A stretch of DNA of 64,000 nt from Leuconostoc mesenteroides subsp. mesenteroides ATCC 8293 (lineage in GTDB: Bacteria > Bacillota > Bacilli > Lactobacillales > Lactobacillaceae): NCBI RefSeq assembly GCF_000014445.1, contig NC_008531.1, positions 1,680,001 to 1,744,000 on the forward strand, in the 5' to 3' direction. Positions 30,256 to 62,038 of the stretch are shown here, one piece after another; position 1 is the stretch's first letter, and each line of letters opens with the position of its first letter. The position numbers and the translations under genes are program-made. The notes under the pieces were generated by a model. The model did no database searches. It saw only the letters and a program-made list of their open reading frames with translations, and was not told the origin of the DNA.

Positions 30256-30861
30256 TTACTTAAAGATCTTAAAGCGTGCATCATCCGTCATGTATTCTTT
30301 AGTACCTGCTGGTGCTTCAATTGATCCAAATGGCATCTGACCACGTAAGTTCCATGATTCAGGTATATCAAATGCTGTATGTACGTCGTCATCTATCAAA
30401 GGATTATAGTGTTGCAGGCTGGCACCAATGTCATTTGCTGCCAAGGCTTGCCAAACATTAATCTGGGCCATACCATTTGCTTGATCAGCCCAAATTGGAA
30501 AGTTTTCCGCATATAAAGAAAGCTGTTCTTGATATTGCTGAACAATATCATCATCCGTGAAGAACAGGATTGTTCCAACGCCCGCCTTGAAACTATCAAC
30601 TTTTTGACGAGTTGCTTTGTAACTTTCTTCATCAGGAACTTCTGACTTTAATCTTTCGGCAACTATTTCCCATAATTTATCAGATGATTCACCAAATAAA
30701 ATCGCAGCTCTGACCGTTTGGTTGTTAAAAGAGCTTGGTGATTCTTTAATTGCTGACTGAATTAATTGGGCAATGTCCTCATTGTTATCAGCTACATTCT
30801 TGCCTAATGCATAAATCGATCGCCTTTTCTTAATTGTTTCAATATAATCTTGATTAACCAT
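30256..30861 (-). CDS. nitroreductase family protein
   Basis: A 201-residue flavoprotein of the small nitroreductase group that includes yeast Hbn1/Frm2. The features are TIKKRRSIYALGKNV (FMN-phosphate binding), SPSSFNNQTVRAAILF, the central helix, and NDIGASLQHYNPLID with FGSIEAPAG. I chose the ATG at 30861 with AGAGG upstream. Its promoter contains the palindrome at 30905-30925 and faces the Rrf2 gene, so it is very likely the target of that regulator. Confidence 0.87.
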   Translation of the reverse strand: MVNQDYIETIKKRRSIYALGKNVADNNEDIAQLIQSAIKESPSSFNNQTVRAAILFGESSDKLWEIVAERLKSEVPDEESYKATRQKVDSFKAGVGTILFFTDDDIVQQYQEQLSLYAENFPIWADQANGMAQINVWQALAANDIGASLQHYNPLIDDDVHTAFDIPESWNLRGQMPFGSIEAPAGTKEYMTDDARFKIFK

Positions 30862-30896
30862 GTGTGACACCTCTTTCATTTTGTAGTATACTTTTA

Positions 30897-30902
30897 ATTA
30901 TA
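30897..30902 (-). promoter_or_regulatory. -10 of the nitroreductase promoter
   Basis: Perfect TATAAT on the minus strand. With a 17-bp spacer the -35 (CTGTAA, 30925-30920) is the outer arm of the palindrome, so a protein bound there would cover it. Confidence 0.65.
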
Positions 30903-30904
30903 GA

Positions 30905-30925
30905 CTGTAACAATATTTGTTACAG
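30905..30925. promoter_or_regulatory. Rrf2-type operator, perfect palindrome
   Basis: CTGTAACAA-TAT-TTGTTACAG is a perfect 9-bp inverted repeat with a 3-bp centre. It lies between the divergent nitroreductase and Rrf2 genes. It overlaps the -35 of the nitroreductase promoter and that of the rrf2 promoter (TTGTTA 30917-30922, 18 bp, GATAAT 30941-30946). Confidence 0.75.
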
Positions 30926-30999
30926 GTAAATCATACTACGGATAATGAAAATTTGTCAAGAAAAAAGTATCGAAAAGATACTAGAAAGTGAACATAACC

Positions 31000-31419
31000 A
31001 TGAAATACTCTACTAAGTTAAGCGATGCTATACATATTCTAACTTATATCGTCATTAATCAAGGCACTGACCTGTCAAGCACACAAATTGCTAAGAGTGT
31101 TAACTCTAACCCCGTGGTTATTCGACGGATTATGTCACAGCTCAAAAATGATGGTTGTTTATTATCTAGTAATGGACGTGCAGATCCAAAATTAGCTCGT
31201 CCAGCCGACACAATTAGTTTATTAGATATTTATCGCGCTGTGGAGGAAGACACCTCATTTCTCAAAATTGACACCAAAACAAATCAAAATTGTAATGTTG
31301 GTAGTCACATTCAGACAACTTTGGATAAATACTATAACCAAGTACAAGAAGCTGCCGAAAAAGAAATGAATAAAATTAAATTAGCCGATATCATCAAGGA
31401 AATTCAAATAGACAATTAA
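31000..31419 (+). CDS. Rrf2 family transcriptional regulator
   Basis: A 139-residue winged-helix regulator: KYSTKLSDAIHILTYIVINQ, then LSSTQIAKSVNSNPVVIRRI and MSQLKNDGCLLSSNGRADPK, which is the Rrf2 DNA-binding part. Only one cysteine (QNCNVG) remains of the three that bind an iron-sulphur cluster in IscR/NsrR, so it is more like the cluster-free YwnA/CymR group. I chose the ATG at 31000; a GTG at 30988 is also in frame. A small hairpin AGTATC/GATACT lies just upstream in the leader. Confidence 0.88.
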   Translation: MKYSTKLSDAIHILTYIVINQGTDLSSTQIAKSVNSNPVVIRRIMSQLKNDGCLLSSNGRADPKLARPADTISLLDIYRAVEEDTSFLKIDTKTNQNCNVGSHIQTTLDKYYNQVQEAAEKEMNKIKLADIIKEIQIDN

Positions 31420-31423
31420 ATCA

Positions 31424-31456
31424 AAAAGCCAAAGGTCAAAAGGACCTTTGGCTTTT
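31424..31456. terminator. bidirectional terminator
   Basis: AAAAGCCAAAGGTC and GACCTTTGGCTTTT form a perfect 14-bp stem with a 5-nt loop. It ends both the rrf2 gene and dsrS. Confidence 0.92.
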
Positions 31457-31475
31457 CACTATATATACAGAAAGC

Positions 31476-34400
31476 TTATGCTGACACAGCATTTCCATTA
31501 TTATCAAATTGGTAAACCTTACCCTGAGCACTTATTAAAGCACTATCTTTTGTTTGTACACCAGTGACTTCATCAAAATGTTGTAAGCTGTCGTCAACTG
31601 CTTTAAAACCTTTGATAAGTTGATAATTAGCATCTGTTAAATACCAATTACCTTGATACTCGAAATAATCATTTTTTACAGCGACACCTTGTGTTGCATT
31701 GAAATAATAACTCAAGTTAGTATCTGGATCCACAATGATAGCATCTTTCACTTGCTCACCGTTTTGATCGAAGTATCTTAGTACACCATCTTGCAATACA
31801 AACCCTGTTTTCGCACGACCACTATCATCTAACAACATATATTTACCATCTGCTAATTGATAATACTGATTTGTGATCAAATTTCCTGTGTTATCAAAAG
31901 CATAGGTAATACCATTAATCTTCTGAACACCAGTTACTAGGCGACCATCAGTGGCACTCGTATAGAAAGTATCACCGTCTGCATCAATGAATTCACCTTT
32001 ACTTTGATGACCATCATTATAGAAATATTGTTTCTTACCATTAATTGTTTGGAAACCAGTGACAGCATGGCCATTACCATCAAAATAGAACCATTGATTC
32101 TTACTGTTTTGCACATAACGTAGGATAGCTAAGTTACCACTACCTGGTTCAAAGTAATACTTATAACCATCAGTGCCAATCACAAACTTATCCTTAACCT
32201 GCACACCATTTTGATCAAAATACTGTTGATGTCCATCAATCGTTGCAAGCCCTGATTTAAGCATTACACCAGCATCATCAAAGTAATACGCATTTCCATT
32301 TTGATCAGTTATATATTGGTCAAAAACTTGATGACCTTTCTTATCGAAATAAACAATTGTACCATCTTCGTTTTGTAAGAAGCTCTTGACCAGTTCGATA
32401 CCATTAGGTAAGAAGAAGTAGGTATGGTTATTAATCTTTTGCAAACCTGTTACTAAATGACCTGTTTTATCAAAATAGTAATAGTTATTATCATCATCTT
32501 GAATAAATGCATTTTGGGCACGATAACCACTTAATGTATAATAGATGATTCCTTTATCATCGTGTGTAAAGCCAGTTTCTGACAGATCATTAGTTAACTG
32601 TTTTGGTAAGTAGTCACCATCTTCAGTGTTCGAAACGACCTTAAAATACTTATTAGAACCCATATCTTTCAATACGTATCCAGCACCTTTACCTTGGATG
32701 TTAGAGCCATTGAAGTACTTAGCCGCCCACTCAGTAATCTTTACACTGCCATCAATTGGAACGCCAGTTGAGATTTGATTCACTTTAAATAGGGATGGAT
32801 AGAGTGCCTGTAACTCTTCTAAGAAGGCACCACCATACATCTCTTGATATTGACCACCCCCACGACTTTGTACAACATATAAGGCATTGTCAATATCAGA
32901 ATCTGTATCGTCATCTCCAAATGAATTTGTTCTTGTGACAGTAGCTAATTCTTGCTCTGGCAAATTATAAATTTGGTCCGGCACCCAATCGGCAATGGCT
33001 TGAATACCGCTAGCATGTAAGGCTTTAATAGCATCGCGCAACTGATCAGCAGTTCCATATTTTGTCGGTGTGCCATAACCTAAGTCATAACGATCCGTGA
33101 ATGCATACCCGTTTTGAATAATTGAATCCAAGAAACTTGTATCTGTACTTGAACGATATTGTGGTGCCAATTGGAAGCTTGTCACACCCCATTGCTTAAA
33201 TTGGTCCGCATTCTGAGCGATGACTACGTTTGTATATTCACTGCTGTCTGTAGCAAATGCTTGGAAGTTTGAGAAACCTTCGTAGATGACTTGAGAATCA
33301 AGAGCAGCGTTTGAATGGAACACTTTATCACTCGTGTTTGTTGTTGTATCAGAGGCCGTTCGTGCATCTTGATCTTGTTGCGCACCTACCGGAACCCAAA
33401 CTGCCAAGTAACCAGAAACTTGTGGATTTTGTACACCATAAATTGATTCATTCGTAAAAATCAAATCGCCGTTAGCATCTGTGTACGCCACAGGTGCATT
33501 TTCATCAGTATCATAATAAGCTAATCCATCTGCAGTTGTTGATAACAAAGCACGATAAGCTTGGTTCTTATGAGCTGCCCCCATGTGCAATGTGACTGTA
33601 TGCCCATCCTCTAATTGTAGTTCCGCGTTGTTGCTGACGATGACCCCAACACCTTCAGTACGCGTCTCAGATGTTCCAGTGTCAGAAGCCGTCATGGCAT
33701 CTTTACCATAGCGAACACTTGTTAACACGTCATTACTATCAACGGACATCGATTGGCCACCAGCAACATATTGGACTCTAGCCTTCAGCAAAGTGTTAAT
33801 CGCATCATAGTATGGTGACTTTGTTGCCATATATTGACCATCATCTGTATATAAATCGCCATAATAGACACGAGGAACAGTATCCTTATTGGTTAGCAAC
33901 ATCGCATAAGCACTAGCCATATTATATTGTGTGTACTTTTTGTCTGCTAATTTTTCATCTTCATTGTATACTTTGAAAGCAGCTGCCAATTGTTCTGTTG
34001 TTGGTGCTAAACTATTTTCAACATCAGGATACAAATCGGAAACAATTTGGGCAATAACCGTTTGCACTTCGCTGTCGTGTGCACGTACAAAGCTGTAATT
34101 AGGAATGGCTTCGTTTTCTGTACTATCATTAGATCGATCAACCATATAATAATCCACGAAGCGCTGCATTGTACCTCGTATGTCAGATGATTTTGTTAGA
34201 GACCAGATTAATTGTGTGTGCACATAATCATCCATGGTTAATTGATTGCTTCCTTGATCTGTTACATACAAAGGATCATTGTGACTCCAATCTTCCAAAA
34301 TTGAAAGATGCTGATTAGCAGTAGCATCATTTTGATCAACACCGTAAGCTAGTTTGAAATAATCGGCAGCAATTTGTAACAAATCAGCATCCACATTGTC

Positions 34401-36059
34401 GACTGCATCTACACGAATACCATCAAAATTAGCATCCGCGTCGTTGGCCGTAATCGTACCAAAATTCATTAAATAATATAACCAATTCAATTGTTCTGCT
34501 TGTACTACAGGGTTTGAATTATCAACGTCATTGGCTAACAACAATTCAAAACCACCTTTTGAATTATCTAAATTATACGCTTGTTCACCAGTCTGGTTTG
34601 TTGGTGTCCGATTAAGTAGTCTAAAGTTTGAATTAGCATCAGGTGTCAGTGGACTGTTGACATAAGTTAATGCGCCATTTTGTAAATGGTCATTGCTCAT
34701 ATCTTCACTAGTTTCATTCCACTGTGGTTGCGTGACAATGAAGGCCGCCATTGCATCCTTTAACCACTCTGTACTTTGTTGCGCACTAATTTTCATTTCA
34801 ATTGATTTTTGAACATAGTTACTTGCTTCATTTAATAAGCTTTGGCTATCCCCAGTTTCAAAACTGTCCGCATTACTGATAAACCCTAAATCAGCCATGT
34901 AATTTAAATAGTTGACCTGGGTGTTCTTATCTGGCCACCACACTGACAATATTGGTCTGAAATCTGTATCTGTAGAAGGTTCCCAGTCTGTTCCGTTACG
35001 TAAAATATCTGTTGGACGATACCATGAACTAGCTGTTAAATAGCCGTCAATATTTTCAAAGTCCTCAGCATCCGTACCGTGGGCTGCATTATGTTCGCTA
35101 TAATCCGTGTTTTGTGTCGTCAAACCTTCTTTTATTTCAGAAGTTGTGTTAGAAACTTCTTGCCCTGTTTCCTGATCAAATGTCATTATTTGACCATCAA
35201 TCACACCAGAGAAGCCTTTTTTTAGTTGCCCAAGATTATCAAAATAATAATTTTTGCCTTCGATATTCTTAATACCGGTAGCAGCATGTCCTTTATCATC
35301 AAAATAGTATGTTGTACCATTTTCAGATTGGTAATATTGATTAAAAATTTGTTGCCCTTCATCGTTAAAAGCAACTATGTTCCCATCAATGCTTTGCAGA
35401 CCAGTTAACTCATCACCTGAGTCCTTATCAAAATAATATGTTTGATTATCAATTGTGACATACTGTCCTTTGACTTGTTTACCACTCTCGTCAAAATATT
35501 GAATATTGTTGTCTATCGTTGATAAACCTTTAGCATTTTTGCCATCATCAAAATAATAATACCAACTACCGTCTTTTTCAACGTACTTGCCGCTAACTTG
35601 TTGTGTTTCGTCAGTTGTCGTTTCAGCAGGATCAGTGTCAGTTGAAGCAACTGCTGATTCCTCATCTTTGCTAGTAACATTGGTTTGAGCGACTTCATCT
35701 TGTTTGTTATCGACTTTTTCATTATCAAGTGCATGATCATCTGACTGTTTTTCTGTCACATTATTATCAGCAGATTGCGTTGTGTCGCTTGCAGCTGTTG
35801 TTACATTATCATTAGTAGCTGCAGACTGTACTTTATCATTTTCTTCGGTAACCGTAGTGTTCTGCTGCGTATCCGTTGTATTATCTGAAGCAGATTGAAC
35901 GTTATTCGCACTCACATCAGGTACACTACTGTCTCCCAAAACACTTGGTGTTGCTAAAGCAAATGAGGCGGTTAATGCAAAAGCACAAACCCCACCAACT
36001 ACCCAACTTTTCCCAACTTTATAAAGCTTTTTCCGCATTACTTTTTCTGTAAATGGCAT
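31476..36059 (-). CDS. dsrS: dextransucrase (GH70 glucansucrase), DsrS type
   Basis: This secreted enzyme builds dextran, mainly alpha-1,6 glucan, from sucrose and releases fructose. The 1527 residues equal the known DsrS length. A KxYKxGKxW signal region ([10 protein letters not shown], then a hydrophobic stretch) is followed by an acidic variable part and YG-type glucan-binding repeats (about 160-300). The catalytic domain has D551 (nucleophile, in [10 protein letters not shown]), E589 (in ILEDW) and D662 (in RAHDSEVQT); I checked these by codon. SEVQT after D662 is typical of alpha-1,6 formers. About 450 residues of C-terminal YG repeats bind glucan. There is no LPxTG. SD AAGGAG lies before the start. 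It follows its own weak -35 promoter. Confidence 0.97.
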
Positions 36060-36100
36060 AAATTTTCTCCTTATAATATTCTCTTCTATTACATTGAAAA

Positions 36101-36106
36101 ATTATA
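36101..36106 (-). promoter_or_regulatory. -10 of the dsrS promoter
   Basis: Perfect TATAAT on the minus strand, 42 nt upstream of the dsrS ATG. At 17 bp spacing the -35 is CTGTTT, a poor match, which suggests that an activator is needed. Confidence 0.6.
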
Positions 36107-36117
36107 ACTTAATTTAT

Positions 36118-36182
36118 TTGTAAAAACAGTAAAAATTTCAATACATAATTGACATATTTTTAAAAAACATTGTAAAAACAGT
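36118..36182. repeat. two 13-bp direct repeats upstream of dsrS
   Basis: TTGTAAAAACAGT occurs at 36118-36130 and 36170-36182, exactly 52 bp apart, about five helical turns. The first copy covers the expected -35 position of dsrS. The spacing suits two regulator molecules on the same DNA face. The rest of the 36060-36480 gap is AT-rich and holds only this promoter region and the terminator at 36232. Confidence 0.6.
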
Positions 36183-36231
36183 CAATCAGAGAATTATATT
36201 AATATTATAAACATTAATTTTTTTATAAAAA

Positions 36232-36269
36232 AACATTGTTAACTTATCTAGTGATAAGTTAACAATGTT
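36232..36269 (-). terminator. long AT-rich terminator downstream of the collagen-like gene
   Basis: AACATTGTTAACTTATC and its exact complement form a 17-bp stem with a 4-nt loop, followed on the minus strand by seven T. It lies 212 bp beyond the stop of the surface protein gene. I see nothing else nameable in 36270-36480. Confidence 0.75.
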
Positions 36270-36480
36270 AATTATTATTAATTAGTCATTAATTTTATTG
36301 ATTATAAAATAATAAAAAAATAAAATAAAATCACATAATATATAAAAGAGGCATTTAACAAGACTAATATGTCTCGTAATAAATATACGAAATAATGAAA
36401 TTAGTATCTTTATAAATAAATCGTGTTGGTAATAATAAATATAAAGTAATTAAAAATAAATATTATTGTTATTTATTACA

Positions 36481-39400
36481 TCATATTCTAATCTTTTTGT
36501 ATAATTTAGAAATTATAAGCAACATCGCTAGTATAAAGGCTTCCAATGCCGATGCAAAATATCGGTGTCCATTTGTTTTAGGGAGCTGTAACCCATTATT
36601 TTTGGATTGATTTATTTTCTGTTTTTCAAGATCTTTTTGAGAAACTACAGCATTGGTAGTTTGATTTAATCTAGAAATATCATTGGCGTTATCTTTTGCT
36701 TCTAAATTATCCGTATGCAAAGTCTTTCCTTCATTCTGGTTTTGCTCACTTTTGTGGTAACTACTTGTCCCCCCAATGATAGCAGCTAAATCATTTTCCT
36801 TTAATTGATCGGCTGAAAAAGTGCTTTGATCAGAATTGTGATCGGCTTGATAATAACTCTCTAACCCTTGATTAGGTACGTTATCTGCATCGTTAGCTGA
36901 AACTTGCTCTTCTTGAACTTGATTGTTGTTTTCAGTAGGTGAGCACTCTTCTTTGACTATCATTTCCTCTATGGCATCACCGCTTGTTTTGGATGTACTT
37001 AAGGCATTACTTTTAAAGCTCTCCGTATTGTCTCGCCCTTTTTTAGTATCAATGCTGTCTGCAACATCTTTGTCCTCAATACTATTTGTGGCCTCTTGAT
37101 TATTTAAACTGTTCTTGCCATCGACACCATTCTGACCATCTTTGCCGTTTACGCCATCTTTGCCATCGACACCATTCTGACCGTCTATACCGTTTACACC
37201 ATTTTTGCCATCGATACCATTCATACCATTTTTTCCGTCGACACCATTTTGACCATTGATGCCGTTTACGCCATCTTTGCCATCGACACCATTTTGACCA
37301 TCTTTGCCGTTTACGCCATCTTTTCCGTCGACACCGTTCTGACCATCAATACCGTTTACACCATTTTTGCCATCGACACCATTTTGACCATCTTTGCCGT
37401 TTACACCACTTTTGCCATCGACACCATTCTGACCGTCTATACCGTTTATGCCATCTTTTCCGTCGACACCATTTTGACCATTGATGCCGTTTACGCCATT
37501 TTTGCCATCGACACCGTTCTGACCATCAATACCGTTTACGCCATCTTTTCCGTCAACACCGTTCTGACCATCAATACCGTTTACACCATTTTTGCCATCG
37601 ACACCATTTTGACCATCTTTGCCGTTTACACCACTTTTGCCATCGACACCATTCTGACCATCAATACCGTTTACACCATTTTTGCCATCGACACCATTTT
37701 GACCATCTTTGCCGTTTACACCACTTTTGCCATCGACACCATTCTGACCGTCTATACCGTTTATGCCATCTTTTCCGTCGACACCATTTTGACCATTGAT
37801 GCCGTTTACGCCATTTTTGCCATCGACACCGTTCTGACCATCAATACCGTTTACGCCATCTTTTCCGTCAACACCGTTCTGACCGTCTATACCGTTTACG
37901 CCATTTTTGCCATCGACACCGTTCTGACCATCAATACCGTTTACACCATTTTTGCCGTCGACACCGTTCTGACCATCGATGCCGTTTACGCCATCTTTGC
38001 CATCGATACCATTCATACCATCTTTTCCGTCGACACCATTTTGACCATCTTTGCCGTTTACGCCATCTTTGCCGTCGACACCATTCTGACCATCGATGCC
38101 ATTTACACCATCTTTGCCATCGACACCATTTTGACCATTGATGCCGTTTACGCCATTTTTGCCGTCAACACCGTTCTGACCGTCTATACCGTTTACGCCA
38201 TTTTTGCCGTCGACACCGTTCTGACCATCGATGCCGTTTACGCCATCTTTGCCATCGACACCATTCTGACCATCGATGCCGTTTACGCCATCTTTGCCGT
38301 CAACACCGTTCTGACCATCGATACCGTTCACGCCATCTTTACCATCGACACCATTTTGACCATCAATACCGTTTACGCCATTTTTGCCATCGACACCATT
38401 TTGACCATCTTTGCCGTTTACGCCATTTTTGCCATCGACACCATTTTGACCATCAATACCGTTTACGCCATCTTTGCCGTCAACACCGTTCTGACCGTCT
38501 ATACCGTTTACGCCATCTTTGCCATCGACACCATTTTGACCATCTTTGCCGTTTACGCCATTTTTTCCGTCGACACCGTTCTGACCATCTATACCGTTTA
38601 CGCCGTCTTTTCCATCAACACCGTTCTGACCGTCTATACCGTTTACGCCGTTTTTGCCATCGACACCGTTCTGACCATCGATGCCGTTTACGCCATCTTT
38701 TCCGTCTTGGCCGTTCTTGCCATCAACAGAATAAGTATAAATCACCCAAACATTCTGTTTTGGATTAGAAATATTTTTTTGCTCAGTAAATACACCGCCA
38801 TTACCATCTGCTGTATAAGTATAATGTAGTAATCCATCATTAGAATTGGTAATGCCTGCCACTTCTTGATTAAATGTTTCTGGAATCTCATATGTGGTTA
38901 CATCTTCGTCTGAATTATTGCTAATGAAATTACCTACTTCATCGTAATAAGATTGACCACTAGTTCCCTTAATAGTTTGCGTCGACTGTAATTCTTTGCC
39001 ATTTATCCTCTTAAGAACATAGTGAACTGTGACTTCAGATTGATTTTTCACGCTTGATTCTGTCAAAGCTGGGCTAGTTGCTGCACCATAACCCTTCTGA
39101 TTATTTTCAGGTGTTCTTGTATCATTTGATACTTCATTTTCCTGATGAACTTCGGGATCTGAATCAGTAATTTCTGCTACTAATGGTTGAATATTATTGT
39201 TTTTTTCGTACGTTATAGTATTTAAATGATAAGTAACCGTAACTGGATCAATCTTTTCCGGCTTTTTCAAAAATGCTAGTTCATCAGAATTCATATTATG
39301 ATTTTCATGCCACCAACGAGCATTTTTATTCATCGGAACTGCACCAATATACAATGTTGGTTTATCCGTTGTAAAATCTGTAAAAGATACACCTTCTTCA

Positions 39401-40623
39401 ATAGCATAATGTTGTGGGTTAGTATCCTCATCCCAATTTGGGGATTGGAAATCAGCACTTGTGTTTACATAGGCAAGTCCATCAGGGGCATTGTCTGCAA
39501 TGCCATCAGCGCTGATATAATCTAAGCCAATTGTTGATTGCTCATTAATAATAGCTGTTTTGGCGTCATTCGTTTGAACATACTCTTTGCGATTACCGTT
39601 CCAGTTATCCCACTCTGGACCAGCAAAATTTGTCGAACTTAAGGACCCAGACAAGAAATATACTTTAGGTTCCTCATTTGAACCGGAAACCTTAGAAATC
39701 GGTACAACTTCATGACTATCACTATAGGTAAACCAGAAAGTTGTTTGCCAATTTAGATTCGTTGCCCATATGTTATCAACGGCATTACTACTGATAGCTA
39801 AATGCGGAATGCCAGACTCCTTATAGTTGTTAGTGTCATTCCAATTGCCATTTTGTAATTGAAAATCATGGAAAATTTCGTGAAAATCGACACTTCGCTT
39901 ATTACCATCAGCATCCTCGATACTTCCTGAACGTGACCACGTTTTTTCGATTGTAGCATTCAATACCTGTGGCCCTACATATTCCCATACCTTCGTACTA
40001 TCGCTGAGATTTGAATGTGAACCAATACCCGTGCAGATTTTGCTGGGTTCTATATTCGACGTTGGACTACTCTCATCCGCCGGTTTTGAAGTATCAAAAT
40101 CCAATGCTTGTTTAGCAGCTGATGTTGCAATCTGTGTTTTGCCATCCTTATTTTGCTGTTTCCCCTTATGTAAAGCTGATTCGTATTCTTCAGTATGTTG
40201 ATTAAATTGTTGATTATTTTGCTGTTGCGTCTTTTCAGCATTCTGTAGTTCAGCAATTTGTTGTTCATAGTCACTTGCAATATCGTTTTTAACCTTAGCA
40301 ATATCCTCCGTATTCTCAGAATCACTCACTATATTACTTCGGGTGGGTTCCTGTTTAACAACAACCCCCACACTTTCAGCCGATTCAACAGCACTGACAA
40401 TTTCCGTATCATCTACCGCCATAGATGTCTGATTGTCCGATGGATTCTCTGATACGAGAGCGACATCTTTATCATTTTGAACTAAACTGCTTTGCTCTGT
40501 AGTCTTTCCATCATCAGCACTGACAACTGTTACAGATGCGTTAAACAACACCACAGCAACCGTTGCAGTTATCCATAATTTCCCTGACTTATATAATTTA
40601 TATTGATCTTTTCTATTTTCCAT
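36481..40623 (-). CDS. collagen-like LPxTG-type surface protein
   Basis: A very large cell-wall protein of 1380 residues from the ATG at 40623 (GGGGGAG upstream; the longer frame from 40707 has no site). In order: a KxYKxGKxW signal (YKLYKSGKLW), an acidic part, a helical stretch (about 95-165), an aromatic beta-rich domain (about 190-430) recalling GbpC/antigen I/II V domains, MucBP-like sequence (about 500-620; VTVHYVLKRINGKEL, GTSGQSYYDE), 179 uninterrupted Gly-X-Y triplets (635-1171) without proline, an acidic linker, and the sorting signal LPKTN (1347-1351) with a hydrophobic segment and basic tail. Likely role: adhesion or glucan binding at the cell surface, by inference from its domains and from its dextransucrase neighbours. 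Confidence 0.85.
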   Translation of the reverse strand: MENRKDQYKLYKSGKLWITATVAVVLFNASVTVVSADDGKTTEQSSLVQNDKDVALVSENPSDNQTSMAVDDTEIVSAVESAESVGVVVKQEPTRSNIVSDSENTEDIAKVKNDIASDYEQQIAELQNAEKTQQQNNQQFNQHTEEYESALHKGKQQNKDGKTQIATSAAKQALDFDTSKPADESSPTSNIEPSKICTGIGSHSNLSDSTKVWEYVGPQVLNATIEKTWSRSGSIEDADGNKRSVDFHEIFHDFQLQNGNWNDTNNYKESGIPHLAISSNAVDNIWATNLNWQTTFWFTYSDSHEVVPISKVSGSNEEPKVYFLSGSLSSTNFAGPEWDNWNGNRKEYVQTNDAKTAIINEQSTIGLDYISADGIADNAPDGLAYVNTSADFQSPNWDEDTNPQHYAIEEGVSFTDFTTDKPTLYIGAVPMNKNARWWHENHNMNSDELAFLKKPEKIDPVTVTYHLNTITYEKNNNIQPLVAEITDSDPEVHQENEVSNDTRTPENNQKGYGAATSPALTESSVKNQSEVTVHYVLKRINGKELQSTQTIKGTSGQSYYDEVGNFISNNSDEDVTTYEIPETFNQEVAGITNSNDGLLHYTYTADGNGGVFTEQKNISNPKQNVWVIYTYSVDGKNGQDGKDGVNGIDGQNGVDGKNGVNGIDGQNGVDGKDGVNGIDGQNGVDGKNGVNGKDGQNGVDGKDGVNGIDGQNGVDGKDGVNGIDGQNGVDGKNGVNGKDGQNGVDGKNGVNGIDGQNGVDGKDGVNGIDGQNGVDGKDGVNGIDGQNGVDGKDGVNGIDGQNGVDGKNGVNGIDGQNGVDGKNGVNGINGQNGVDGKDGVNGIDGQNGVDGKDGVNGKDGQNGVDGKDGMNGIDGKDGVNGIDGQNGVDGKNGVNGIDGQNGVDGKNGVNGIDGQNGVDGKDGVNGIDGQNGVDGKNGVNGINGQNGVDGKDGINGIDGQNGVDGKSGVNGKDGQNGVDGKNGVNGIDGQNGVDGKSGVNGKDGQNGVDGKNGVNGIDGQNGVDGKDGVNGIDGQNGVDGKNGVNGINGQNGVDGKDGINGIDGQNGVDGKSGVNGKDGQNGVDGKNGVNGIDGQNGVDGKDGVNGKDGQNGVDGKDGVNGINGQNGVDGKNGMNGIDGKNGVNGIDGQNGVDGKDGVNGKDGQNGVDGKNSLNNQEATNSIEDKDVADSIDTKKGRDNTESFKSNALSTSKTSGDAIEEMIVKEECSPTENNNQVQEEQVSANDADNVPNQGLESYYQADHNSDQSTFSADQLKENDLAAIIGGTSSYHKSEQNQNEGKTLHTDNLEAKDNANDISRLNQTTNAVVSQKDLEKQKINQSKNNGLQLPKTNGHRYFASALEAFILAMLLIISKLYKKIRI
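37111..38721 (-). repeat. 45-bp tandem repeats encoding Gly-X-Y collagen-like sequence
   Basis: About 34 units of 45 bp encode GVNGIDGQNGVDGKN-like 15-mers, with two 27-bp short units (GMNGIDGKD and GMNGIDGKN) and a 9-residue lead-in. All 179 triplets keep glycine first. Variation is almost only N, D, K or S at fixed places. A 233-bp stretch (37337-37569) is repeated without a mismatch at 37652-37884, exactly seven units away. Confidence 0.95.
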
Positions 40624-40654
40624 ATGCTCCCCCGAGTAATTATTGTAAGTGTTC

Positions 40655-40683
40655 ATTATATCATTTTGATAAACGTTAAACAA
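40655..40683 (-). promoter_or_regulatory. promoter of the collagen-like surface gene
   Basis: Minus strand -35 TTGTTT (40683-40678), 17-bp spacer, perfect -10 TATAAT (40660-40655). The spacer begins with AACGTT, part of AAACGTTAA at 40671-40679, a motif also present at the HTH gene promoter and upstream of the second glucansucrase. Confidence 0.7.
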
Positions 40684-40707
40684 TAATTGTATAACTTTAG
40701 CAAACAT

Positions 40708-40920
40708 TTAAATGAAAAAAATATCCTTGATTTCTTTATCAAGTCCTTTAGCAATTTTTTTAGCCGTTGGTGGTGATGGATGCTTCTTATTATTTAAATA
40801 TTCTGTCATCAATGAATAATTGACCCCTATTCTTTTGGAAAAAATCGCAATACTTTCCCCACGTATTGCGATTTCCTTTCTGACTGAAGTAGCATCTCGA
40901 AATTGTAGTGTTAGTGACAT
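40708..40920 (-). CDS. small HTH (Cro/XRE-like) DNA-binding protein
   Basis: A 70-residue protein that is little more than a helix-turn-helix: SVRKEIAIRGESIAIFSKRI, GVNYSLMTEYLNNKKHPSPP, TAKKIAKGLDKEIKDIFF. The size fits Cro-like or excisionase-like regulators. GGGGAAG precedes the ATG. It has a perfect-consensus promoter, lies 84 bp upstream of the surface-protein start on the same strand, and is divergent from an XRE/ImmA pair. It may act on the surface gene, on the XRE promoter, or both. Confidence 0.8.
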   Translation of the reverse strand: MSLTLQFRDATSVRKEIAIRGESIAIFSKRIGVNYSLMTEYLNNKKHPSPPTAKKIAKGLDKEIKDIFFI

Positions 40921-40949
40921 TTATCTTCCCCATTCTTTATCATAGTGTC

Positions 40950-40978
40950 ATTATATAGGCGTTGTATCACATTGTCAA
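40950..40978 (-). promoter_or_regulatory. perfect-consensus promoter of the small HTH gene
   Basis: Minus strand TTGACA (40978-40973), exactly 17 bp, TATAAT (40955-40950). The palindrome AAACGTTT (40977-40984) overlaps the -35. A promoter this strong normally needs a repressor; the divergent XRE gene is the obvious candidate. Confidence 0.85.
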
Positions 40979-41072
40979 ACGTTTTATATTCTGTTTTGCA
41001 ACTTATTGTGTTTATGTTTGTTTTTCATTTGTATATAATAAAAGTAAACAACTAACAGGAGGGTTTGCATAT

Positions 41073-41462
41073 ATGGTAACAAAAGAACAGTTCGGCCAAA
41101 AAATTAAACATATTAGAGAAAAAAAGCATTATACTGTTCGTCAAGCTGCCCTACAAGGTAATTTTTCATCCGCCTATTTATCTCAGATTGAAAATGGCAA
41201 TAAAAATATTCCTAAAGTCGAAACACTTTATCGCATTGCTAAAGGACTGAGAATATCAAAAGATGAAATATTACATATTGCCGGAATTACTTCCCATACT
41301 TCACCTAAACACCCCAATAGTGTAGATCTTGGCAAACAATTTGCCGATGATGATTTGCTCTTGTCTTTTGAAGGAAAACCTTTATCCCCAGAATATCGCG
41401 AAGCAATTTTGTCCATACTCCGCACCTTGCCAGATGTCGATGAAAAAACAAAAGAGGATTAA
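41073..41462 (+). CDS. XRE family transcriptional regulator (ImmR-like)
   Basis: A 129-residue repressor-like protein. The N-terminal HTH (about 1-65) reads FGQKIKHIREKKHYTVRQAA, NFSSAYLSQIENGNKNIPKV, ETLYRIAKGLRISKDEIL. A short polar linker follows, and then a C-terminal helix. Start at 41073 has AGGAGG nine bases upstream. Size and order with the ImmA-type protease gene six bases downstream recall ImmR of ICEBs1 and phage CI-type repressors inactivated by proteolysis. Confidence 0.88.
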   Translation: MVTKEQFGQKIKHIREKKHYTVRQAALQGNFSSAYLSQIENGNKNIPKVETLYRIAKGLRISKDEILHIAGITSHTSPKHPNSVDLGKQFADDDLLLSFEGKPLSPEYREAILSILRTLPDVDEKTKED

Positions 41463-41468
41463 TTTTCA

Positions 41469-41876
41469 GTGTACATAGATGACAGAATTTCAAACTATCT
41501 TGAACAAATCGTGCAAAAAAATGGTTTGACATTAATACATATTGATGGCACAGAACTTGACCCAGATGTGGCCAATGGTCGTAAAAGAGCTATCATCATC
41601 AACAATAATTACAAAACAAATTTCAGTCGCTATTTTCGAATTGCGCATGAAATATCTCATTTAATTTATACAAGAAGCAACGATACTTACGCGTTTTCTC
41701 CTCTTTCAAAATTATCAGATGAAACGGAAGCTAATTTACATGCTATCCAAATTTTAGTAGATTTTTATTTCTCAGAAATCCCCTTAAAACAAGAACGTTG
41801 GGAACGGCGGTTTCACTTTATTGAAGCGTTTGGTCTTGGTCAAATAACGCATCTTGTTGAAAAAATATTAGCATAA
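41469..41876 (+). CDS. ImmA/IrrE family metallopeptidase
   Basis: A 135-residue zinc protease. The HEXXH motif is in RYFRIAHEISHLIYT; the downstream acidic ligand is probably in SDETEANLHAIQIL. Family members (ImmA, IrrE/PprI) cleave XRE-type repressors under stress. The start is a GTG with AGAGGA upstream; no ATG is in frame nearby. It follows the XRE gene by six bases and should target that protein. Confidence 0.85.
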   Translation: MYIDDRISNYLEQIVQKNGLTLIHIDGTELDPDVANGRKRAIIINNNYKTNFSRYFRIAHEISHLIYTRSNDTYAFSPLSKLSDETEANLHAIQILVDFYFSEIPLKQERWERRFHFIEAFGLGQITHLVEKILA

Positions 41877-41911
41877 AAAAAGTGCCACCAATTAATTGAT
41901 GACACTTTTTT
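41875..41911. terminator. bidirectional terminator
   Basis: AAAAAAGTG(C)CA pairs with TG(A)CACTTTTTT, with one internal mismatch, between the convergent immA-like gene and the second glucansucrase. Confidence 0.75.
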
Positions 41912-41931
41912 GTGTTATTAGCTAAATTCGG

Positions 41932-44900
41932 TTAGCTTTTAATCATCTCTCCAGAATTTGCGTCATAATATTTTTGGCTACCGTCAGCTTGTGTTACTGC
42001 GGCTCCCTTAACTTGATGACCATTGGCATCAAAATACAGTTGTTGTCCATTTATATTTTGTTCCCCAGTTACAGCAACACCATTAGCACCAAAATATGCC
42101 CATGATCCGTCTGATATTCGTTCAAAGCGATTCGTCACCATATCACCAGAATCTGCATCATAGTAGCGCATCTTCCCATCAGTAGCCGTGTATTCACGAC
42201 CCTTAACTTGGTTACCGTTGCTTTCAAAGAACAAATGTTGACCATTAATGACTTGTGCGCCGGTTACGATGTTACCTTTTTTATTAAAGTACGCCCATGA
42301 TCCATCTGATAACTTTTCAAAACGATTAGTGATCATTTCACCAGAATTAGCATCATAATAATGCACTTTGCCTTTTTTATCAGTCGCTTCCTTACCTTTA
42401 ATCTGTTGTCCGTCGGCATCAAAGAACAATTTTTGCCCACTAATTGTCTGTGCACCAGTTACAGCGATACCGTCAGCACCAAAGTATGACCATGTACCAT
42501 CTGTGTTTTCACCAAAGCGGTTCGTCACCATATCACCAGAATCAGTGTCAAAGTAGCGTAGCTTTCCGTCTGCATCTTTCACGGAAGTCCCTTTGACCTG
42601 AATACCGTTCTTATCAAAGTATTGGATATGCTCCTGCCCATCAACAGTCACGGTTGTTAAGCCAGCATTAGCCATAACACCATTTTTGTCAAAGTAACGC
42701 CAAGTTTTATTAGCCAACATGTAGTATCCATCAACAGCTTGTTTGCCATATTGATTGAAATAATAAACATTTCCTTTACTATCTTCTAAGATAGCATCTT
42801 GTAATTCAATACCATTAGGCAAGAAGTAATAATTATTATCATTGACTGTCTGGAAACCATATGTCATATAACCATTCTTGTCAAAGTAATACCAATTAGA
42901 TTTGTCATCTTGGATGAATGTATCTTTTGCCTGGTATCCACTTGTAGAATAATATGTCATCCCACCATCAGTTGAAATAAATCCAGTGTTTGATTCTTCA
43001 TTCGTCAACTGCTTTGGCAAAAATACACTGCTGTTGCTTGAAGTGCTTACCTTGAAGTACTCATTTGTAGCCCAGTCCTTAAGGACATAGTAAGCACCAC
43101 GACCTTGAATGTTAGTACCGTTAAAGTACTTAGCGGACCATTCTTTTATCTTTTCACTAGCATCCATTGGTACGCCGGTTGAAATTTGATTTTTTTCGAA
43201 TAGAGAAGGGTACAATTTCTTGATTTCATCAAGGAACTCTCCACCATATAGTGCCTGATATTCTCCGCCACCAACGGTTTGTGAAGCATATAATGTTTTA
43301 TTAATTACAGAATCTTGATTATAGATTCCTGAGTTGTTGACACGTTGTACCGCAACCACTTCTTTACCTGTCAAATTATAAATCTGGTCTGGTACCCAAT
43401 CTGCCATTGCCTTGATACCTGTCGCATGCAAAGCTTTAATAGCTGTACGGAGTTGATCTACAGTACCATACTTCGTTGGTGTATTGAATCCAAGATCATA
43501 ACGATCAGTAAATGCATAACCATTTTGAATAATTGAATCTAAGAAACTACTATCCGTACTTGAACGATATTGTGGTGGAAACTCGAAGTTCGTAATTCCC
43601 CAACTCTTGTATAAATCAGTATTGTTTGCAATTTGCACATTAGCATATTCAGCTTCTGTTGTTGGTGTAGATTGGAAGTTAGAGAAACTTTCATAAATAA
43701 CTTGAGAATCAAGTGCGGCATTTGAATGTAATGTTTGTCCATCAGCAGTTGTTGCTGTACTACTTTCAGTTCGCGCATCTTGAGTATCTGAAGCACCAAC
43801 GGGTACCCAGACAGCCAAGTATCCAGAAACTTGTGGATTTGCTGTACCAACAATATCTGAACTATTGAAAATAAGTTGCCCATTACTATTTGTATATCTT
43901 ATTAAGCTTTGTGAGACATCACTATCAGATACATAAGTATCTATGCCATCTTTAGTTGTTAACAAAGCAGGACGATAAGCCTGGTTTTTGTGCGCTATGC
44001 CCATATCTACAACTACTTGATCTGTACTGCTCAACTTCAAATCTGGGTTATTACTTTCAATTACTGCAATACCTTGCGTACGTGTTTCATTTGTCCCTGC
44101 ATCGGTAGCAGTCATGGCACCATTACCATAACGAACTGATGTCAAAATGCCTCTATAACTGTCAGCAGCCATACTACTATCACCTTGCATATATTTCATA
44201 GACATTGTTTGCCCGCCAGAAACATACTTGATACGAGACTTCAGCAAAGTATCAATTGCATCGTAATAAAGTGACTTTGTTGCCATGTATTGACCATCAT
44301 CTGTATACATATCACCATAGTACACACGTGGCACTGTATCTTTATTCGTTAGTATTGTGGCATAAGTACTTGGAATGTTATATTGTGTGAATTCTTTATC
44401 CGTTTTCAACTGATCAGCATTATAAATTTTAAACGCTTCTGTTAATTGGTCCATCGTTGGTGATAAGCCATCAGAATCCGGATCAATTCTTTGTTTAATA
44501 ATTTCAGCAATAACTGTTTGTACTTCACTATCATGTGCACGAACAAAAGAATAATTTGGTTGTGCGGTATTATCTGTCGAATCATTTGTACGATCAACTA
44601 AACTATTTGTCAAAAAAGGTTCTAATCCACTTCTTTTATTACCATATTGATCGACTGCTGGCATAGTGAGTGAGTATTTTAATGACAAACGCAATTTATT
44701 ATCCATTGACAATTGATTGTCGCCATTGTCTTTCACATATTCAGCATCATTGTCACTCCAATCTTCAAGAATGGAAACATGTTGATTCGAAATTGCATCA
44801 CTCTTATCGACGCCATATGCTGCCTTGAAATAATCAGCTGCAATTTGCAATAAGTCGGCATCAACGTTATCAACAGCATCTACTCGAATACTATCAAAGT

Positions 44901-46476
44901 TAGCATCTGCATCGTTATTAGTAATTGATCCAAAGTTTAACAAGTAATACATCCAATTTAGTTGTTCTGCTTGAACAACTGGGTTTGAATTATCCACATC
45001 ATTGGCCAAGAGGAAGTCATAACCACCTTGAGTTGGATCTGTCGTATACAAAGGCGTGCCTGTTTGATTTGTTGGTGTGCGATTAAGTAATCGATAATCA
45101 GAATTGGCATCTGGTGTTTTATCACTATTGACATACAACAATGCACCACCTTGCAAATGATCAGTTCCTTTTGATTCACTAGCAATATTCCAATTTGATT
45201 GGCTATCAACAAATTTTGAAATATCATCCTTTAGCCATTGTGTTTGGCCTTCTTGACTAATTTTTTCTTCAATTTTCACTTGAATGTTCTGTGCTGCTTT
45301 GTTCAAAGCGTCTTGACTGTCATCTGAAGTATAAACAGTTTCCGTTTCAGTGGCATCTAAATACTTCATCGCATTCAAATAGTTTACTTGTGTTGCCTTA
45401 TCTGGCCACCAAGTCATTAACAATGGTCGTAAATCGTCATCCTTTGATGATTCCCAGTTTTGACCGTTGACTAATATGTCCTTAGGCCTGTACCAACTGT
45501 CGGCTGTTAGGTACCCGTCAACGTTTGTATAACTATCAGAAGATGTACCAACTGAGGCATTATGCTCCGTATAAGTATTATTTTCACTAGTCAATCCTTC
45601 TAAAAATTGATAGTCATTTGTATCAGCTAATGCGCCAGTCTCTTTATCAAAATAAAGTACCTTACCATCAATTACGGTAGCAAAGTTCTTTTTTACTTGA
45701 TCATCATCGTCGTAATAATATGTTTTGCCATCAATCGTTTTCAGATTCTTTGAACTAGCTTCTAATGCTGCAGTAGTATCGGCCGTCTTCGAATTGTTAT
45801 CAATCGTTTGACTTTTTTGTGCCGATGAACTTACATCTTTATCGCTCGCTGTAGCTGAATTGTTATTATCAGATGTGCCGACTGTTGTTGCTGTTTTATC
45901 ATCTGTTGATGTAGCTGCTGTTGTTGTAGCCTTATCATCTGTTGATGTAGCTGCTGTTGTTGCAGCTTTATCATCTGTTGATGTATCTGCTGTTGTTGCA
46001 GCTTTATCATCCGTTGATGTAGCTGCTGTTGTTGCAGCTTTATCATCCGTTGATGTAGCTGCTGTTGTTGCAGCTTTATCATCTGTTGATGTAGCTGCTG
46101 TTGTTGTAGCCTTATCATCTGTTGATGTAGCTACTGTTGTTGTAGCCTTATCATCTGTTGATGTAGCTGCTGTTGTTGTATCCTTATCATCTGTTGATGT
46201 AGCTACTGTTGTTGTAGCCTTATCATCTGTTGATGTAGCTGCTGTTGTTGCAGCTTTATCATCTGTTGTGATTGATTTGTCAGACGTAGTCGCATCCAAA
46301 TTCGATTGATCGACTGCCGTGGCCACTACTACCCCATTGTTTTGTGAAACATCAGCTTGTGCTTGTTGAATAAAACTGGTAACACCAATTATTGAAACAC
46401 TCCCTGCAATGACTAACATTTTCCCAGATTTATACATCTTTTTCCGGAAAACGCTTGTTGCATTTCTATTTCTCAT
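41932..46476 (-). CDS. second GH70 glucansucrase, dextransucrase-like
   Basis: A 1514-residue secreted glucansucrase, paralogous to the DsrS-type enzyme. A KxYKxGKxW signal ([10 protein letters not shown], then [19 protein letters not shown]) is followed by eleven 12-residue [12 protein letters not shown] repeats. The catalytic domain has D533 ([10 protein letters not shown]), E571 (ILEDW) and D649 (RAHDSEVQT), checked by codon. SEVQT suggests mainly alpha-1,6 linkages. C-terminal YG repeats include three long near-copies ([16 protein letters not shown] type). There is no wall anchor. It may match DsrB-like enzymes of L. mesenteroides, but I cannot confirm which. The upstream inverted repeat and Rgg-like gene suggest regulation. 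Confidence 0.93.
45885..46270 (-). repeat. 36-bp tandem repeats in the glucansucrase N-terminus
   Basis: About eleven copies of a 36-bp unit encode the 12-mer [12 protein letters not shown], with only A/T, A/V and a few single changes. The DNA is nearly identical between units, which allows length change by slippage. The reading frame is kept whatever the copy number. Confidence 0.92.
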
Positions 46477-46507
46477 TTACTTCTTCCCTTCATTCTTTCC
46501 CTTTTTG

Positions 46508-46552
46508 GCACAAATAACTACTATATTCTCTAATCAAAACGGTTATTTGTGC
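46508..46552. promoter_or_regulatory. 11-bp inverted repeat upstream of the second glucansucrase
   Basis: GCACAAATAAC (46508-46518) and GTTATTTGTGC (46542-46552) are exact complements with 23 bp between. A -10-like TATAGT lies between the arms on the minus strand. It could be a paired operator or a hairpin in the leader mRNA. A separate TTGACA is at 46594-46589, without a good -10. Confidence 0.55.
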
Positions 46553-46631
46553 TTGTGAGATCCTAAACATTTATGACTAAGAATGTTTTGTCAACAAATG
46601 TTTTTTACAAACGTTAATCATTAAAACTAAC

Positions 46632-46719
46632 TATTTTAATATATAATGAAACAAATATTTAAAATAAATTATGCAGAATTGAATAATTAGAAAATATTAA
46701 GGTTATTTTAATATATAAT
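46632..46719. repeat. 16-bp direct repeat upstream of the rgg-like gene
   Basis: TATTTTAATATATAAT occurs at 46632-46647 and 46704-46719, 72 bp apart. Each copy ends in a plus-strand TATAAT. No good -35 accompanies either. The whole 46477-46776 gap is AT-rich and holds only these control elements; no short hydrophobic peptide gene was found. Confidence 0.5.
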
Positions 46720-46776
46720 AAGTCACTGCTTTTAAATAAAATATAAAAAATTAAATAATTATAGGTTACTGAGGAT

Positions 46777-47660
46777 ATGAATAATAAAAAAGGATCTGTT
46801 ATCAAAGAAATTAGGAAAATACGAGGAATATCTCAACAACGGTTGGGTGTTTTAATTGGATCACAATCAATGGTGTCTAGAATAGAGAACAATAAGACAG
46901 AACCAACTGATCACACCATACTTTTACTGTGTGACGCCCTAAACATTTCATTTGAAGAATATTTTTCGGCTGCTTTTGGAAAAAAAAAAACAACTTAAAA
47001 ACCCTGACAACTGTTTTAAGTCAATATTATCAAGACAATGATCGTCAAAAATTGAATCAATTAACGCAATTATTACAAAATGATACAATCAAGAATCCTA
47101 GCGACCCATTCATGCGTCATTATTATTTAATGTCGCTGTCTACTTTGTATCACTTAGATTTCCTAGTCGCATCAATCGACGATCAGAATGAATTGATTGA
47201 TTACTTTTTTAATATTAGTTACTGGCAGTTCTATGACTTATGTTTACTGGCGAATGTAGTTAACATGATACATGTTGAAAGAATCACACCTTACATATTT
47301 GACATACTTAAACAGTACGCTACGAATAATATGCCAACGGCATCCGTTGAAACTGTGAGCAAAATATTGATTAACGCTTTGGAAACAAGTATTATACAAA
47401 AAAAAGATGACTTTACTAGATATCTATTAGATAAAATTAAAAAATATAAATTTAACACCGATGACTTTAAGTTTCAAACGTGGCTACTATTTTGGACTGG
47501 GGTGTTTGAGAATAATAATAACAAAGTTAGGCACGCCTATAGTATTGCTACGTACCTACATCAAAATATTACTTTGAAAAATTTTGATAAGTTTTTAACA
47601 ATTACTCAAACACCAAGTCCTTTTTTTGAAGACACTAAAAAAGACACACCTAAAAGCTAA
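46777..47660 (+). pseudogene. Rgg/GadR/MutR family regulator split at an A11 run
   Basis: The first frame (46777-46998, 73 codons) is an N-terminal HTH (VIKEIRKIRGISQQRLGVLI, GSQSMVSRIENNKTEP). The second (open from 46980 to 47660) is a helical C-terminal domain of Rgg type (PSDPFMRHYYLMSLSTLYHL and so on). They are separated only by eleven A (46980-46990): frame 0 stops at TAA 46996, while the -1 frame runs on with no stop through NNLKTLTTVLSQYYQD. One more A, two fewer, or a -1 slip gives a 294-residue protein, the normal Rgg length. It could be a true pseudogene, a phase switch, a slippage site or a base-calling error. Confidence 0.85.
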
Positions 47661-62020: not shown

Positions 62021-62038
62021 TTTTTATTCAAAAAAATT

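Follow-up and report, generated by a model that had tools for sequence, protein, structure and literature searches.

A probable surface protein with a predicted GbpC/antigen I/II-type head and a proline-free collagen-like stalk, linked to a phage-type switch in Leuconostoc

We identified, in a 64,000-nucleotide stretch of the chromosome of Leuconostoc mesenteroides subsp. mesenteroides ATCC 8293 (NC_008531.1, positions 1,680,001 to 1,744,000 of the forward strand; hereafter the window), a gene for a protein that is, with high confidence, a surface adhesin with the fold of GbpC and antigen I/II. The gene lies between two glucansucrase genes of family GH70; the conserved partner of the adhesin is, however, a phage-type regulatory switch rather than the GH70 pair. 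An earlier note, made from the sequence, had suggested a dextran- or host-binding stalk protein in one island with two dextransucrases. The predicted fold of the head supports this interpretation in part, but the note had overlooked that regulatory genes with exchangeable cargo are linked to the adhesin gene. We give about an even chance to a model in which the head, carried on a Gly-X-(Asn/Asp) stalk of variable length, holds self-made alpha-glucan and the phage-type switch controls the adhesin. The adhesin gene is laid out as follows, in coordinates of the window.

36481..40623, minus strand: adhesin gene, 1380 amino acids (open reading frame translation, homologues found)
40513..40617, minus strand: KxYKxGKxW signal peptide, residues 3-37 (Pfam PF19258, TIGR03715)
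40153..40440, minus strand: Adhesin_P1_N domain, residues 62-157 (Pfam PF18652, E value 3.2e-9, above cut-off)
39271..40170, minus strand: head, approximately residues 152-451 (AlphaFold2, Foldseek, VIA-align)
38812..39033, minus strand: MucBP-like region below cut-off, approximately residues 531-604 (E 0.0055, 17.9 of 23 bits)
37111..38721, minus strand: Gly-X-Y stalk of 179 triplets without proline, residues 635-1171 (sequence count)
36484..36585, minus strand: LPKTN-type sorting signal, residues 1347-1380 (read by eye from the sequence)

The predicted structure of the head underlies the assignment. The AlphaFold2 model (pLDDT 80.9, pTM 0.78) has, according to Foldseek and VIA-align, the fold of the antigen I/II V-region, GbpC and PrgB, with antigen I/II V-regions among its best matches; this fold is known from adhesins that bind dextran or teeth. 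The earlier note had proposed such a head, and had named the lack of a match to glucan-binding or adhesin folds as grounds for giving the idea up; since the head is predicted with the GbpC/antigen I/II fold, and follows an Adhesin_P1_N domain, the idea stands as far as the fold is concerned. This N-terminal scaffold domain is a trait of the polymer adhesin classes other than class I. The head itself has no Pfam match at all at E<=5, and a direct sequence search of the PDB with it returned nothing at E<=1. Neither C-terminal Ig-type surface antigen domains nor the antigen I/II repeat appear in the adhesin among Pfam matches at E<=0.1. The head is negatively charged (24 Lys/Arg and 44 Asp/Glu in residues 151-472) and near-invariant among relatives named L. 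mesenteroides; the nearest relatives are 99-100% identical over residues 150-640 and, where named, belong mostly to this species. Besides an adhesin with this head, genome G010 encodes a true PF08363 GbpC-domain protein (C1:1542142-1542867, locus L022; E 8.2e-23), and L. citreum has the head twice, the other copy being distant (32% identity; locus L012, G002 contig 6).

The ends of the protein point to export and anchoring. The KxYKxGKxW signal named in the earlier note is recognised above cut-off by both Pfam (E 9.5e-7) and TIGR03715. The sorting signal that it also named can be read by eye as LPKTN, a hydrophobic stretch and the basic tail KKIRI, following a spacer after the stalk; Pfam's Gram_pos_anchor model, on the other hand, is absent from the matches at E<=0.1. 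An LPxT motif is present in 50 of 52 relatives, and four sortase-family matches in the genome exceed their cut-offs. From its sequence, then, the adhesin would be anchored by sortase and located in the cell wall. The MucBP-like sequence of the earlier note is a weak match, with a bit score below the curated cut-off of PF06458.

The second part of the main finding is the group of regulatory features in front of the adhesin gene, together with a terminator-like site behind it.

40708..40920, minus strand: Cro-like helix-turn-helix gene (HTH70), 70 amino acids, directly before the adhesin gene (Pfam HTH_3, E 8.4e-5, just at the cut-off; conserved)
40950..40978, minus strand: promoter-like TTGACA-17-TATAAT (sigma-70 scan)
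40964..40980, minus strand: 17-bp (base pair) element GTTTGACRATGTGATAC, candidate operator overlapping the -35 box (sequence conservation)
41073..41462, plus strand: divergent XRE-family regulator, ATG at 41073, the listed reading frame starting at TTG 40962 (Pfam HTH_3, E 1.7e-11)
41469..41876, plus strand: M78 (ImmA/IrrE-like) metallopeptidase with HEISH (Pfam PF06114, E 7.4e-6)
36232..36269, minus strand: terminator-like hairpin with a 17-bp stem, between the adhesin gene and the downstream GH70 gene (hairpin scan)

The promoter-like site (40978-40950) is the sole 12-of-12 match among the 82 sigma-70 matches in 30800-47200 (shuffle mean 64.7). From HTH70 to the adhesin gene the scan showed nothing resembling a terminator; the hairpin at the 3' side of the adhesin gene is followed by a T run, and is one of 17 such sites, compared with 8.5 in shuffles. 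Our genome sample comprised 19 Leuconostoc and 286 non-Leuconostoc genomes of the family. HTH70 is present in 12 of the 19, and genes for the XRE regulator and the M78 protein accompany every copy, with HExxH kept in 11 of the 12 M78 proteins (the twelfth is a fragment). The make-up is of the ImmR/ImmA type, an XRE regulator with an HExxH-bearing M78 protein. The pattern TTTGACRATGTGATACR has one mismatch-free occurrence in each of the 12 HTH70 genomes and none in the other seven; only exact matches were counted, as, with two mismatches allowed, scattered genome sites match not only the element but also its backward control. Perfect dyad symmetry was looked for in the element and not found. 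Co-regulation of the GH70 genes through this element was considered and dropped, the window holding only the element's own site within three mismatches. Of the 286 non-Leuconostoc genomes, 22 gave a related HTH70 gene (E<=1e-3); in the nine contexts fetched, an XRE match adjoins HTH70 in all and no M78 match was found. Six genomes of another genus in the family (L073-L075, L077-L079) have such a pair in front of a similar 433-437-amino-acid protein, membrane-like by its start.

The switch carries two kinds of cargo. The gene following HTH70 is the adhesin in seven of the 12 Leuconostoc genomes; in the other five, each from a different species (G006, G008, G009, G014, G017; loci L058-L062), it belongs to a glycosyltransferase operon, which encodes a GT2-GtrA protein, a second GT2 protein, unassigned membrane proteins and a PF18013 phage-lysozyme-like protein. 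These domains were assigned by Pfam on five proteins of four loci, both glycosyltransferases only in L058, and elsewhere by length and sequence start. The chromosomal site varies as well. In eight of the 19 genomes a nitroreductase gene and manA flank the cassette, which carries the adhesin in three of them and the glycosyltransferase operon in five, whereas in the remaining 11 the nitroreductase gene directly precedes manA, as in the window.

62032..62038, no strand: closed nitroreductase/manA junction, 7 bases between the reading frames as listed (genome comparison)

In four of the 11 (the window, G018, G010 and G013) the switch and the adhesin gene form one group with a GH70 gene on either side, ~18-22 kb from the nitroreductase/manA junction. 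The 17-bp element and the gene order are kept in all 12 genomes across two chromosomal sites and two kinds of surface cargo.

We propose a series of linked steps by which these parts could act. The stalk would present the head beyond the cell wall, where it would most likely hold alpha-glucan that the cell makes with its own GH70 enzymes; the adhesin would thereby tie cells into the dextran matrix and cause aggregation. Transcription would run from the one strong promoter before HTH70, through the adhesin gene, to the terminator before the next GH70 gene. By binding the conserved 17-bp element, the divergent XRE protein may keep this promoter repressed. ImmA cuts ImmR, and in a similar fashion the M78 protease would, on an inducing signal, cut the XRE protein and lift repression, with HTH70 perhaps locking the switched state.

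The identity of the ligand brings in the two neighbouring enzymes.

31476..36059, minus strand: GH70 glucansucrase a, 1527 amino acids (Pfam E 0)
41932..46476, minus strand: GH70 glucansucrase b, 1514 amino acids (Pfam E 0)

Both neighbours, which the earlier note had called dextransucrases, are clear GH70 members. They share the motif HDSEVQT, presumably an alpha-1,6 signature, their top-scoring solved chains are named Glucosyltransferase-S, and both bear C-terminal glucan-binding repeats. Whether the ligand is glucan we regard as evenly balanced; the near-invariant head, its negative charge and the position of the head gene between two GH70 genes in four of seven genomes speak for it. Several observations weigh against the proposed model. 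The glucan-binding repeats of the GH70 enzymes could tie cells to glucan by themselves. No GH70 gene stands beside the head gene in the other three genomes (G005, L. inhae G004 and L. citreum G002; 20, 10.7 and 20 kb fetched), and, since all 19 Leuconostoc genomes have GH70 genes, co-occurrence is uninformative and was rejected as support for a dextran ligand. The switch is not specific for the adhesin, as five of 12 genomes carry other cargo. PF08363, the GbpC family, does not match the head at E<=5 and has no match in genome G000 at E<=1. A head-profile search of the PDB found no V-region and one irrelevant chain at E 2.5; in a positive control, GbpC was recovered at 1.4e-69 with a profile built from 11 proteins that bear PF08363. 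The head aligned only weakly with that set in hhalign, at a probability of 54 and an E value of 1.3e-4 for a single comparison, and with a longer alignment the single match falls in the P1_N region. The GbpC rows of the structure comparison have a high root-mean-square deviation (12.2-13.6). Because the PF08363 and PDB profile searches find no match, we call the head a relative by fold and not a PF08363 member. The same-island idea of the earlier note thus keeps the fitting fold, but the two dextransucrases as its defining unit are weakened, because adjacent GH70 genes are missing in three of seven genomes and the hairpin separates the adhesin gene from the downstream GH70 gene.

The stalk is unusual for a collagen-like sequence. 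The count agrees with the earlier note on 179 consecutive triplets without a proline; the longest run in 1000 protein shuffles was six triplets. Its list of D, N, K, V and I for the X and Y positions is nearly right, but there is a strict split: X is V66 K46 Q35 I30 M2, and Y is N91 D85 S3, i.e. Asn or Asp in 176 of 179. According to the review PMC8968730, bacterial collagens most often have proline in the X position and threonine in the Y position. The sequence repeats with a period of 15 residues (identity 0.87 at lag 15), encoded by a 45-bp DNA unit, and matches Collagen (PF01391) at E 4.3e-85. Across homologues Y stays Asp/Asn while X drifts; for instance, Y is D89 N57 K1 in G010 (X mainly K, N, V and R) and D72 N57 A25 T1 in L. 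citreum (X being K, Q, L and E). The rule is not absolute: P0057 shows Ala at 15 of 84 Y positions, and the L. litchii stalk, as far as it can be read, has 4 Pro of 44. Three non-Leuconostoc collagen proteins of Lactobacillaceae differ in composition from this stalk; a collagen census of that family at 1e-10 was too strict to give a frequency, having missed the window's own gene. Stalk length ranges from 27 to 169 triplets, with 33 different totals, among 52 protein entries with heads at least 98.4% identical, some pairs of which are two start choices of one gene. The variation need not all be assembly artefact, because some entries come from contigs near 2 Mb. As length varies so freely, the stalk behaves as a spacer, and it may form a triple helix. 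A 526-amino-acid antisense reading frame over the repeat (37249-38829, plus strand) was taken as a shadow of it.

The same observations can be read in other ways. The head may bind a protein or mucin-type ligand of host or plant, the dextransucrase neighbourhood being incidental. Antigen I/II V-regions bind salivary agglutinin, and they are among the best fold matches; relatives in lactobacilli carry MucBP_2/Muc_B2 domains, several being named mucin-binding; and GH70 neighbours are missing around three of the seven Leuconostoc copies in the stretches fetched. We nevertheless consider this rather unlikely, given the near-invariance of the head and the two GH70 genes that flank the adhesin in four of seven genomes. 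Binding of DNA or lipoteichoic acid by the head, leading to aggregation as with PrgB, whose fold it is also predicted to share, seems very improbable. It is little more probable that the Gly-X-Y part is the binding region, as in the streptococcal Scl proteins: the Collagen match and the 287.9 bits under the Scl2/SclB model fit this idea, but that score lies under the SclB cut-off of 325, and two of the seven Leuconostoc heads (those of G005 and G004) stand without a collagen stalk, which leaves five with one.

As regards the switch, the XRE, M78 and HTH70 genes might be a phage remnant or a toxin-antitoxin-like pair that stands beside surface genes without controlling them. HTH70-XRE pairs adjoin quite different genes in other Lactobacillaceae, in all nine contexts fetched from the 22 genomes. 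The conservation of element and gene order in every HTH70 genome of Leuconostoc, at either site and with either cargo, argues against it, as does the uninterrupted stretch between HTH70 and the adhesin gene in the terminator scan, and we judge it improbable.

Comparison with known systems sets the adhesin apart from each of them. GbpC of Streptococcus mutans (5UQZ/6CAM) is a dextran-binding class I polymer adhesin; the Leuconostoc head differs in being unrecognised by PF08363, and comes with a collagen-like stalk, a KxYKxGKxW signal and a local phage-type switch in front. Unlike the antigen I/II proteins SpaP, SspB and Pas, the adhesin lacks the repeat and the C-terminal Ig domains according to Pfam. 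The Lactobacillaceae adhesin L025 (KxYKxGKxW-Adhesin_P1_N-GbpC-MucBP) has signal, P1_N and head in the same order, with more wall sequence after them, but its head belongs to PF08363 (E 4.7e-46) and is followed by MucBP_2/Muc_B2 domains. With Scl1/Scl2 and with PclA, as the latter is outlined in PMC9276737, the adhesin shares a long Gly-X-Y stalk and a wall anchor; its stalk differs from that of Scl1/Scl2 in being proline-free, with Y almost only Asn/Asp, and in falling under both NCBIfam cut-offs (183.8 of 400 bits for Scl1 and, for Scl2, the score given above). As outlined for ICEBs1, ImmR/ImmA likewise places an XRE repressor beside an M78 protease, whereas the Leuconostoc cargo is a surface adhesin or a glycosyltransferase operon and no integrative element.

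IrvR and IrvA of S. mutans resemble phage repressors. In that species stress acts via this pair to raise GbpC, which stiffens the glucan biofilm, according to the outline in PMC7101444. Both systems thus place phage-repressor-like regulators side by side in connection with a GbpC-fold adhesin, raised under stress in S. mutans; IrvR, however, is LexA-like and self-cleaving, acting on gbpC via irvA RNA, whereas the Leuconostoc switch is local, of XRE type and with an M78 protease. The parallel would be one of function, not of descent. We tentatively propose, although as a whole it is rather doubtful, that a domesticated phage-type switch (Cro-like helix-turn-helix protein, XRE regulator, M78 protease and one operator) serves Leuconostoc as an exchangeable cassette that drives genes of the surface matrix, either a GbpC-fold glucan adhesin or a glycosyltransferase operon, at one of two sites, for stress-induced dextran aggregation; it would be an independent counterpart of IrvR/IrvA-GbpC, with a polymer adhesin class, unrecognised by sequence, on a proline-free stalk.

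L. mesenteroides, a food bacterium, is a classic dextran producer. Among the openly licensed papers listed, no title or abstract start mentions a dedicated adhesin that binds its cells to dextran, nor is the present protein described in those listed for Leuconostoc collagen-like, GbpC, KxYKxGKxW or adhesin proteins. The author of the earlier note had likewise not seen the idea of a dextran- or host-binding stalk protein in the island described; KxYKxGKxW is mentioned in PMC12215647, on an L. mesenteroides levansucrase. If our proposal holds, this GbpC-fold protein, controlled by a phage-type switch, would be such a dedicated dextran adhesin, the polymer adhesin fold would reach beyond its sequence family, and there would be a testable parallel to the stress-induced dextran aggregation of oral streptococci. 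The Gly-X-(Asn/Asp) stalk also offers a way to examine how a fibre of the collagen type could stay together when proline is absent.

Upstream of GH70 b, at ~46777-47660 on the plus strand, an HTH-like frame (by eye) is followed by an Rgg_C domain (Pfam) in another frame, with an A run between them. The frame change is conserved, because the alignment has no gap there in all four species compared, and it may be read by slippage.

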